From Marmoricola sp. (GTDB lineage: Bacteria; Actinomycetota; Actinomycetes; Propionibacteriales; Nocardioidaceae): DNA of 42,315 bases. How positions within the stretch are numbered: the stretch's first letter is position 1; each line of letters begins with the position of its first letter. The position numbers and the translations under genes are program-made. The stretch is taken from assembly GCF_025965215.1 (NCBI RefSeq), contig NZ_JAOPXI010000025.1:1-42315 (forward strand), read 5' to 3'. Below the pieces are notes generated by a model. That model ran no database searches and was not told where the DNA came from. It saw only the letters and a list, made by a program, of their open reading frames with translations. This document shows positions 529 to 6,996 of the stretch, one piece after another.

Positions 529-679
529 CGACCCGCAGGTGTCAGGCTCGCGCCTGGTACCGGCGGACTACCGGTTCACCTGCGGGTCGGGTGGCTGCGG
601 TGGATTCGCTGGCAGCCGCCAGCGTGCCCCACGGAACTCACGAGGAGCGGGGGCGTGGAGCTGCTAGCTAGCAGCCACC
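529..679 (-). ncRNA. Structured RNA: three-way junction plus attenuator-like stems
   Basis: On the minus strand two helical domains abut. At 529-589 a perfect 12-bp stem (CGACCCGCAGGT with its complement) closes two hairpins, ACCGG/CCGGT with a 7-nt loop and CAGGC-GCGA-GCCTG, joined by 2-nt linkers. GCGA is a GNRA tetraloop only when read on the minus strand. At 590-679 a 9-bp stem (671-679 with 590-598) encloses CGCTGGC-GGCT-GCCAGCG (607-624). The palindrome at 660-675 competes with that 9-bp stem. There is no U-tract, so it is not a simple terminator. Boundaries and function are inferred; a DNA palindrome family is the alternative. Confidence 0.6.
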
Positions 680-702
680 TCACTTGTCCTGAAAGATTGC
701 AT
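664..702 (-). CDS. Twelve-codon putative leader peptide
   Basis: ATG at 702 opens a 12-residue frame, MQSFRTSEVAAS, ending with TAG at 664-666. It is preceded by a strong purine-rich ribosome-binding site (AAGGAGGTGG on the minus strand, about 11 nt before ATG) and by a well-spaced promoter. The last five codons and the stop codon form one arm of the GCTGCT/AGCAGC hairpin and also of the competing 9-bp stem, which is the usual layout of a translated attenuator leader. It sits between the end of the ABC exporter operon and the DHA2 exporter. It shows no run of a single amino acid, so the signal, if any, is not evident. It could be a chance frame. Confidence 0.5.
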   Translation of the reverse strand: MQSFRTSEVAAS

Positions 703-734
703 CTCTTCGGACCACCTCCTTCCTGTGTGCGACC

Positions 735-763
735 ACGGTACGTCGCGTGAAGCGTCCTCACAA
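735..763 (-). promoter_or_regulatory. Promoter of the leader RNA
   Basis: On the minus strand TTGTGA (763-758) and TACCGT (740-735) are separated by exactly 17 nt. A start near 728 would give a short 5' UTR carrying the AGGAAGGAGG ribosome-binding site and then the 12-codon leader ORF. This is an inference from consensus similarity only. Confidence 0.5.
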
Positions 764-5131: not shown

Positions 5132-5782
5132 TTACGGAGCCAACCGGTGCGTGCTCCAGGTCTCGCCGTGACGCCGGTAGACGAGCCGGTCGTGCATCCG
5201 GCCGCGTCTGCCCTGCCAGAACTCGATCGTGCTCGGTCGGACCCGGTAGCCACCCCAGTACGGCGGTGCCGGGATGTCCTGGCCCAGGTAGTAGGCGCGG
5301 ATCTCGTCGTACGTCGCCTCCAGGGTGTCCCGGGACACGACCTCGCGGGACTGGGCCGAGGCCCACGCACCGATCTGCGAGTCCCGGGGACGCGACGCGA
5401 AGTACGCCTCGGTCTCCGACCGTCGTACGACGTCGGCGGTGCCCTCGATCCGGACCTGGCGCTGCAGGCCGTACCAGCCGAAGAGCAACGAGCACCGCGG
5501 ATCCGCGGCCAGCGCGACGCCCTTGCGCGACTCGTGGTTGGTGAAGAACACGAAGCCGTGGGCATCGAAGCCCTTGAGCAGCACCGTGCGCGAGGACGGC
5601 GTACCGCCTGCATCGACGGTCGAGAGCACCATCGCGTTGGGCTCGGTGACGCCGGCTGTGCGGGCGATCTCGAACCAGGTGCTGAAGAGCTCGAGCGGAT
5701 CAGGAGTCAGATCGGACTCGTCGAGGCCGCCCAGTTCGTACTCCTCGCGCAGACTCGCGAGGTCGGGCGTGACCGGATCCAT
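5132..5782 (-). CDS. pdxH: Pyridoxamine 5'-phosphate oxidase
   Basis: 216 residues, the usual PdxH length. The FMN-binding PNPOx fold shows PSSRTVLLKGFD (about 62-73), FFTNHESRKG, and the C-terminal substrate-binding block RPSTIEFWQGR with RMHDR. It oxidises pyridoxamine or pyridoxine 5'-phosphate to pyridoxal 5'-phosphate in the cytoplasm with FMN and O2. It is divergent from citrate synthase. The ATG at 5782 is preceded by TAATCT and a 6-nt gap with no Shine-Dalgarno, so it is probably leaderless. serC, whose product needs PLP, lies about 4 kb away. Confidence 0.95.
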   Translation of the reverse strand: MDPVTPDLASLREEYELGGLDESDLTPDPLELFSTWFEIARTAGVTEPNAMVLSTVDAGGTPSSRTVLLKGFDAHGFVFFTNHESRKGVALAADPRCSLLFGWYGLQRQVRIEGTADVVRRSETEAYFASRPRDSQIGAWASAQSREVVSRDTLEATYDEIRAYYLGQDIPAPPYWGGYRVRPSTIEFWQGRRGRMHDRLVYRRHGETWSTHRLAP

Positions 5783-5889: not shown

Positions 5890-6996
5890 ATGACTGAGGT
5901 ACACCACGGGCTCGAGGGCGTCATCGCCTTCGAATCGGAGATCGCCGAGCCGGACAAGGAAGGCTCTGCCCTCCGCTACCGCGGAGTCGACATCGAGGAG
6001 ATCGTCGGACGGATCCCGTTCGAGAAGGTCTGGGGACTGCTCGTCGACGGCGCCTACGACCCCGGCCTGCCGCCGGCCGAGCCGTACCCGCTGCCCGTGC
6101 ACTCCGGTGACATCCGGGTCGACGTGCAGAGCGCGATCGCGATGCTCGCACCCGCCTGGGGCATCCAGCAGACCTACGACATCGACGACACCCAGGTCCG
6201 CGAGGACCTCGGTCGTGTGGCGGTGATGGTGCTGTCCTACGTCGCCCAGGCCGCCCGCGGTGTCGGCCAGCCGATGGTGCCCCAGAAGGAGGTCGACCGG
6301 GCCTCCACGATCGCCGAACGGTTCATGATCCGCTGGCAGGGCGAGCCCGATCCGCAGCACGTCAAGGCGATCGACGCGTACTGGTCCTCGGCGGCCGAGC
6401 ACGGCATGAACGCCTCCACCTTCACCGCACGGGTGATCACCTCGACCGGCGCCGACGCCTGCGCAGCGCTCTCCGGCGCCGTCGGCGCGATGAGCGGCCC
6501 GCTGCACGGCGGCGCCCCGGCCCGGGTGCTCACGATGATCGAGGACGTGGAGAAGAGCGGCGACGCGACGGCGTACGTCAAGAAGCTGCTCGACGAGGGC
6601 GACCGGCTGATGGGCTTCGGCCACCGGGTGTACCGCGCCGAGGACCCGCGGGCGCGGGTGCTGCGCCGTACGGCGCGGGAGCTGAACGCGCCGCGCTACG
6701 AGGTGGCCGAGGCGCTCGAGAAGGCAGCGCTCAAGGAGCTCAAGGAGCGCCGTCCCGACCGCGTCCTGGAGACGAACGTCGAGTTCTGGGCGGCCATCGT
6801 CCTGGACTTCGCCCAGGTGCCGCCGCACATGTTCACCTCGATGTTCACCTGTGCCCGCACCGCCGGCTGGTCGGCGCACATCCTCGAGCAGAAGCGGACC
6901 GGTCGACTGATCCGCCCGTCGGCGATCTACACCGGTCCCGCGTCCCGAAGCGCCTCGGACGTCGACGGCTACCACTCGGAGTGGGCGCTGTCCTGA
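5890..6996 (+). CDS. Citrate synthase, short actinobacterial type
   Basis: 368 residues, the length of the short type I enzymes often annotated citrate synthase 2 in actinobacteria. Catalytic His candidates sit in EHGMNASTF (H171), GPLHGGAP (H206) and the family signature GFGHRVYRAEDPRA (H245). The enzyme condenses acetyl-CoA with oxaloacetate; family members may also act on propionyl-CoA (2-methylcitrate), and sequence by eye does not settle which. An AAAGGAG ribosome-binding site lies 8 nt before the ATG. It is divergent from pdxH and ends at the strong hairpin at 7015-7074. Confidence 0.93.
   Translation: MTEVHHGLEGVIAFESEIAEPDKEGSALRYRGVDIEEIVGRIPFEKVWGLLVDGAYDPGLPPAEPYPLPVHSGDIRVDVQSAIAMLAPAWGIQQTYDIDDTQVREDLGRVAVMVLSYVAQAARGVGQPMVPQKEVDRASTIAERFMIRWQGEPDPQHVKAIDAYWSSAAEHGMNASTFTARVITSTGADACAALSGAVGAMSGPLHGGAPARVLTMIEDVEKSGDATAYVKKLLDEGDRLMGFGHRVYRAEDPRARVLRRTARELNAPRYEVAEALEKAALKELKERRPDRVLETNVEFWAAIVLDFAQVPPHMFTSMFTCARTAGWSAHILEQKRTGRLIRPSAIYTGPASRSASDVDGYHSEWALS

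Follow-up and report, generated by a model that had tools for sequence, protein, structure and literature searches.

An RF02471 match and its surroundings

The DNA analysed here (the window) is a stretch of 42,315 nt from a Marmoricola sp., i.e., positions 1–42,315 of contig NZ_JAOPXI010000025.1. Near its beginning, the minus strand carries a match to the Rfam family RF02471 (Ms_IGR-5, listed as "Actinobacteria sRNA") at positions 523–728, which is full-length (model positions 1–184 of 184) and, with 104.9 bits and an E-value of 9.5e-23 (cmscan), exceeds the curated threshold of 45 bits. An exporter gene (MFS_1) is the next gene in the same direction. The first-pass annotation, made from the letters of the window, had called this gene a DHA2 pump, a term that is its own, and had read the region in front of it as a ribosome-controlled attenuator with a promoter, a 12-codon open reading frame (ORF) and two competing stems. 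All coordinates of the features named there check on the minus strand; a pseudoknot between the ORF and the 3′ domain had been overlooked. The parts of the element are given below in the direction of transcription, all on the minus strand.

763–758: −35-like box TTGTGA, followed by a 17-nt spacer
740–735: −10-like box TACCGT; both boxes have counterparts in the letter preferences of the 276 elements
729–727: putative transcript start, guessed to lie near these positions
724–709: extended Shine-Dalgarno sequence AGGAAGGAGGTGGTCC, complementary to the 16S rRNA 3′ tail
702 (ATG) to 664 (stop TAG): 12-codon ORF MQSFRTSEVAAS, from the comparison of frame, start and stop
689–686: pseudoknot 5′ strand GGAC within ORF codons 5–6, from covariation and prediction in further loci
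679–671: 5′ strand of the long pairing PL at the end of the ORF, GGTGGCTGC as DNA and GGUGGCUGC as RNA, from covariation and folding
675–660: local palindrome GCTGCTAGCTAGCAGC, the rival of PL in the window sequence, weakly conserved
667–660 and 616–609: helix P2, CUAGCAGC (including the stop codon) with GCUGCCAG, supported in part; pair columns from locus L005, window strands assigned by eye
601–607: GAAUCCA between P2 and PL, from alignments by eye
598–590: 3′ strand of PL, GCAGCCACC, from covariation and folding
529–589: terminator-like P3 domain with outer stem CGACCCGCAGGTG (589–577) and CACCTGCGGGTCG (541–529), enclosing hairpin P3a (575–559) and a second hairpin
568–565: 3′ strand of the pseudoknot, GUCC, within the P3a loop, from covariation and prediction in further loci
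493–479 and 472–458: two palindromes before the exporter gene, outside the RNA, with a putative operator role

The Marmoricola genome contains one RF02471 match in all. At a contig end of the same genome, a DNA search returned a partial 44-nt copy of the 3′ stem region with 83% identity (G000:C120:10825-10868, locus L002).

Distribution of the element and comparison set

RF02471 was detected in 252 of 294 genomes of the same taxonomic family, nearly every listed positive genome having one match, in 244 of 394 genomes of the class (242 of them over the cut-off) and in 88 of 396 genomes of the phylum (50 of them over the cut-off); in each of these surveys none of 14 controls was positive. A search for the motif formed by the long Shine-Dalgarno sequence and the GAGGTG of the ORF marked 93 of the 396 phylum genomes (reversed control: 2), of which 45 had no RF02471 match, and the union of both searches comprises 133 genomes. 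Some of these motif matches look spurious, e.g., one match out of two in each of G507 and G526. Among the matches listed, record titles with a similar motif include Nocardioides, Mycobacterium, Mycolicibacterium, Micromonospora, Amycolatopsis, Cellulomonas, Frankia and Geodermatophilus, and the family looks wider than the reach of its present model. The lineages L319–L332, which are motif matches in genomes lacking an RF02471 match, have ORFs ending V-T-V-E-V-x-x-x (A-T-V-E-V in L325) and a knot strand reading UGAC or CGAC.

For the comparison, 276 distinct elements were retained out of 316 loci, leaving out the partial match L002, the 100-base placeholder row L083, four loci that were too short (L018, L260, L275, L279) and repeats of the same element. 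The pattern used to locate the ORF requires a GGAGGTG-type site and G[AG]GGTG, and part of the loci were found by such a motif, so that the invariance of these letters is partly given by construction; on loci found through the Rfam model, the pattern missed only L002 and L083. Within this scope, the reading frame of the ORF and the long pairing are conserved.

Transcripts of the family have been recorded previously. Ms_IGR-5 appears among the small-RNA transcription units of Streptomyces avermitilis (PMC8780764), receives RNA-seq support in Streptomyces lividans (PMC8079986) and is detected in M. smegmatis, there as a transcript exceeding its originally described length (PMC10454040). Ribosome protection of this RNA has been described for M. 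abscessus and M. smegmatis, along with the authors' warning that non-coding RNAs also leave footprints (PMC4974804). Searches of open-licence literature yielded mentions of the RNA only, with no assigned function and no report of an ORF or a pseudoknot found there.

Conservation of the reading frame and its initiation signals

The 12-codon ORF proposed for the window keeps its start, stop and frame across the 276 elements. A canonical start in frame, counted if 13–20 nt downstream of where the ribosome-binding site begins, is present in 265 of them, compared with 9 and 5 in the other two frames, and the first stop follows exactly 15 nt after GAG in all 276 (TAG 249, TGA 17, TAA 10). Most ORFs with a canonical start (253 of 266) have 12 codons, the start being TTG in 132, ATG in 102 and GTG in 32 cases. 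Nine elements of a 168-element set show ATT, ATC, CTG or ACG at the expected place instead of a canonical start, which may represent near-cognate starts or a loss of the start. The ORF is also readable in 20 further loci.

On a tree derived from the region that follows the stop codon, the start codon, taken as the three bases from 21 nt before GAG, changed 46, 10 and 13 times at its three positions in all 276 elements, compared with 70–74 changes at each of the three preceding bases. In 254 rows preselected for a start-like codon these numbers were 36, 0 and 1, and in the same preselected rows the stop codon changed 0, 8 and 15 times and was never lost. At the beginning of the peptide, changes altered the amino acid in 106 of 111 cases for codon 2, in 60 of 86 for codon 3 and in 99 of 125 for codon 4, summing up to 265 of 322. 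Regarding conservation of the peptide, frame, start and stop are consequently kept, whereas the residues of codons 2–4 are free to change, and it is for this reason that being translated, rather than the N-terminal part of the peptide, appears to be what is selected.

The promoter-like boxes with their 17-nt spacing are found where the first-pass annotation had placed its promoter, and at the corresponding places of the 276 elements −35-like and −10-like letters occur in excess (T in 72% at −44, A in 57% at −20), with a blur of roughly one base. The ribosome-binding site, described there as strong, pairs with the 16S rRNA tail over a far longer stretch than the sites of neighbouring genes: contiguous pairing extends over 12–20 nt, most often 17 (G-U allowed), in the 276 elements, about 10 bases of which follow by construction from the locating pattern, and over 3–11 nt, most often 5, in 482 neighbouring genes with script-called starts. 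The sequence used here is one which we take to be the 16S rRNA 3′ tail; a search recovered it from 11 of 20 relatives and not from this fragmented assembly.

Covariation of the helices

The long pairing PL is supported by compensatory changes both in pooled counts and on the tree. It is paired in 97.9% of cells versus 93.3% in shuffles, with 95 double changes versus 16, and its pairs 7, 8 and 9 changed on the same branch on 6, 10 and 9 branches, where 0.16, 0.40 and 1.25 were expected; pair 5 showed no such excess (2 vs. 2.5 expected). None of the slid controls gave more than a weak signal (lowest p 0.01). The minimum-energy fold contains PL in 212 of the 276 elements, and in 237 a fold with PL lies within 2 kcal/mol of the minimum. 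For the window sequence, the minimum-energy fold uses the local palindrome, and the PL fold lies about 3 kcal/mol above it (+3.1 for the printed 215-nt stretch, +3.6 for the aligned stretch), corresponding to a PL probability of 0.006 in an energy model without pseudoknot.

The idea that the last codons of the ORF choose between two mutually exclusive pairings holds up well for the long partner, which is clearly conserved, and less so for the local palindrome. The latter is paired in 77.5% of cells, i.e., slightly above every shuffle (75.9% on average, 76.7% at most), and on the tree one of its six pairs has a same-branch excess (p 8e-4), the others having p above 0.05, which sets the palindrome back as a conserved rival of PL. 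Covariation strongly supports the P3 stem and supports P2 in part. About 12 nt after P3 the base preferences fade in a stretch with some T, which is compatible with a terminator. As seen by eye, a GAAUCC-like stretch, unpaired in the model, recurs in many relatives and could possibly be a contact site for a protein or for a tertiary interaction.

A pseudoknot between the ORF and the 3′ domain

While the structure line of the Rfam match leaves the middle of the ORF and the P3a loop unpaired, both are paired in the model presented here, with GGAC of the ORF facing GUCC in the loop. This pseudoknot is paired in 99.3% of cells (shuffles 98.3%), with 11 double changes compared with a mean of 0.6 and a maximum of 3 in shuffles. 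At its fourth pair, for which 274 elements have letters, 261 have a C on the ORF side, invariably facing G, and 13 have a U, which faces A in 11 and G in 2; same-branch changes amount to 5 versus 0.15 expected (p 3e-8). The stricter independent-pairs method on the starred branches yields only three pairs, on average 2.8 of them concordant and none against. A fifth pair, strong in pooled counts, was discarded, as independent pairs on the tree did not support it.

The loop partner was also predicted from the ORF in other lineages before 20 further loci were fetched. By eye, the expected four-base word lies at the corresponding place in 19 of these 20 loci, which represent few lineages and hence fewer independent events, and is absent there in L336; examples of knot strand and partner are UGAC-GUCA, CGAC-GUCG, AGAC-GUCU and GGAU-AUCC. 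Under an automatic rule, by which the word had to fall into the loop of a hairpin comprising five or more paired bases, the predicted word was recovered in 16 of the 20, compared with 6% for random words and one-letter variants, L336 being among the four loci that failed. Predictions of a six-base loop held in part, e.g., GAGACC has GGUCUA, not GGUCUC. In addition, a 5′ GUCC could form a hairpin with GGAC around the start codon; this hairpin is paired in 98.7% with one same-branch change in all and, being nearly invariant, is hardly tested by these counts.

Neighbouring genes and the exporter

Neighbours were counted at 241 loci with sufficient flanking sequence and called genes to either side, the calls being made by means of our own codon score; gene names in the clusters were assigned by eye unless a Pfam result is given. 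Of these loci, 111 have the next gene on the strand of the element and 130 have it on the other strand, and the downstream proteins fall into 86 clusters, the exporter cluster accounting for 18 loci. The exporter that follows the element in the window is consequently the neighbour in a minority of relatives, and no sign of a neighbouring gene as the output was found among the 241 loci. The mycobacterial downstream gene is presumably Rv0813c, and Ms_IGR-5 might, as a lead only, be identical to scr4389. If the former assignment is correct, the small ORF described before Rv0813c in one article would lie on the other strand (PMC11133741).

The exporter gene has conspicuous sequences of its own. 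At positions 458–493 of the minus strand, just before its start codon, the window contains two exact copies of GTTGC-N5-GCAAC, where 0.02 are expected in the window, and one or two palindromes of this kind precede the exporter gene in 12 of 16 loci with the exporter signature. Their occurrence in the window and in these loci suggests a separate control of the exporter, which looks as if it had its own repressor system. In L087, a MarR-like reading frame (by eye) is located 3′ of the exporter.

Folding calculations were performed for 262 elements with the ORF either free or occupied. The mean pairing probability of the P3 stem was 0.82 in both states (one occupancy, in a model that ignores pseudoknots and kinetics), so that no antiterminator is visible among these elements.

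Discussion

The reading that we consider rather probable, and which names no target, is that the RF02471 element of the window is an independent small-RNA gene and no cis-acting leader, its fold and the translation of its ORF excluding each other. Comparison across relatives shows an element lacking a fixed neighbour and possessing an ORF with evolutionary marks of translation, the long pairing and the pseudoknot, and its own promoter-like boxes together with the lack of a conserved neighbour speak for a separate transcription unit. The leader-type ORF of the first-pass annotation is supported: it bears evolutionary marks of translation, and its last codons take part in a structure that is impossible under a ribosome.

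In the proposed model, codons 5–6 are knotted to a loop of the 3′ domain and codons 8–11 form part of PL, which ends beside this domain. As the ORF strands of both pairings would lie under a translating ribosome, the fold and translation exclude each other, and the geometry suggests that the ribosome would reset the fold of the RNA. The cell could use this exclusion as a switch: efficient initiation at the ORF would free the 3′ domain from the pseudoknot, and inefficient initiation would let the RNA close. Translation initiation would then serve as input, and the output would lie in the state of the 3′ domain (freed or closed) or in the lifetime of the RNA, with a trans target, RNA lifetime or the holding of 30S subunits as candidates. 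Counted from the first base of the start codon, the knot strand of the 12-codon class starts at a distance of 13 nt, approximately where an initiating ribosome has its front edge. A more specific and tentative version, which we regard as conceivable and yet doubtful, is that this phylum-wide RNA senses initiation itself: the long Shine-Dalgarno sequence would recruit the 30S subunit, often to a weak start codon, the pseudoknot at the leading edge would be opened by elongation only, and the fold, and with it a trans output, would report the initiation capacity of the cell, e.g., the balance between Shine-Dalgarno-led and leaderless initiation.

Several other readings share parts of this evidence. 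The long Shine-Dalgarno helix and a knot at the ribosome's front edge could also hold subunits, with the RNA acting as a decoy for 30S subunits or ribosomes that lowers Shine-Dalgarno-led versus leaderless initiation; a 16S-tail pairing that greatly exceeds the one at neighbouring genes, the distribution of start codons (TTG 132, ATG 102, GTG 32) with near-cognate candidates in nine of 168 elements, the spacing of 13 nt and the reported ribosome protection (PMC4974804) are in line with it. A pure decoy, however, would not need the kept stop codon and frame, and we consider this explanation unlikely. The kept frame, in turn, together with its readability in the 20 further loci and the E-V before the last three residues, would fit a gene for a self-acting peptide of 12–15 residues, the synthesis of which is merely tuned by RNA structure. 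Against this stands the large share of amino-acid-altering changes in codons 2–4, and the invariant GAG GTG is no evidence for a peptide because the locating pattern demands it and the GTG lies within PL; a peptide gene is to us decidedly unlikely. The signatures of start and stop on the tree and the frame counts make a coincidental reading frame very unlikely at the family level, so that an ordinary trans-acting small RNA, as which the family is filed in Rfam and detected in three studies (PMC8079986, PMC8780764, PMC10454040), is hardly credible as the full description.

Spelled out, the attenuator of the first-pass annotation would mean that slow translation of the leader shifts the pairing and lets polymerase into the pump gene. 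In its favour, the exporter gene of the window runs in the same direction and follows the ORF, the mutually exclusive pairings and a terminator-like stem. Ribosome-mediated attenuators of the trp, ermC or whiB7 type likewise combine a short leader ORF, a pairing of its codons that is prevented by the ribosome and a terminator-like stem nearby. The RF02471 element differs from them by having no conserved downstream gene, no antiterminator visible in the folded elements and no regulatory codon run: the leader ORF is, judging by its conservation, translated, but a co-directional gene to be regulated exists in the window and not across the family. With the next gene in opposite orientation at 130 of 241 loci, the exporter at 18, palindromes of its own in front of the exporter and a P3 stem indifferent to occupancy of the ORF, attenuation of the exporter did not stand up, and we judge it very improbable. 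Codons 2–4 change freely. The codon tallies of the ORF contain no obvious run of one codon and thus lend no support to a leader responding to amino-acid starvation, which was also considered. The window thus illustrates that judging an element of this kind by its neighbouring gene can mislead.

The independent small-RNA gene favoured here resembles dual-function small RNAs such as SgrS/SgrT, which are also stand-alone RNAs that are translated; the RF02471 ORF differs in being 12–15 codons long, in lying inside the structure and in having first residues that are free to change. A named small-RNA family, for which no function was found in our searches, would be a translated RNA with its reading frame woven into a conserved pseudoknot, present in numerous lineages of a phylum that ranks among the largest in bacteria, including mycobacteria and, by published Rfam matches, Streptomyces. 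This makes for a concrete hypothesis that is accessible to mutation of the start codon, a swap of the knot strands and changes to the long Shine-Dalgarno sequence, and it possibly offers a handle on how actinobacteria monitor translation initiation.

A minor observation concerns the genomic position of the element. A few kb from the RNA, the window contains a pdxH-like gene (PNPOx) at 5132–5782 and a citrate-synthase-like frame (by eye) at 5890–6996. In 22 of the 241 loci, the downstream neighbour on the opposite strand is a pdxH-like protein (by eye), and in 4 such a protein is the upstream neighbour on the same strand; this recurrence suggests that the RNA may sit at an old location into which the ABC genes were inserted later.
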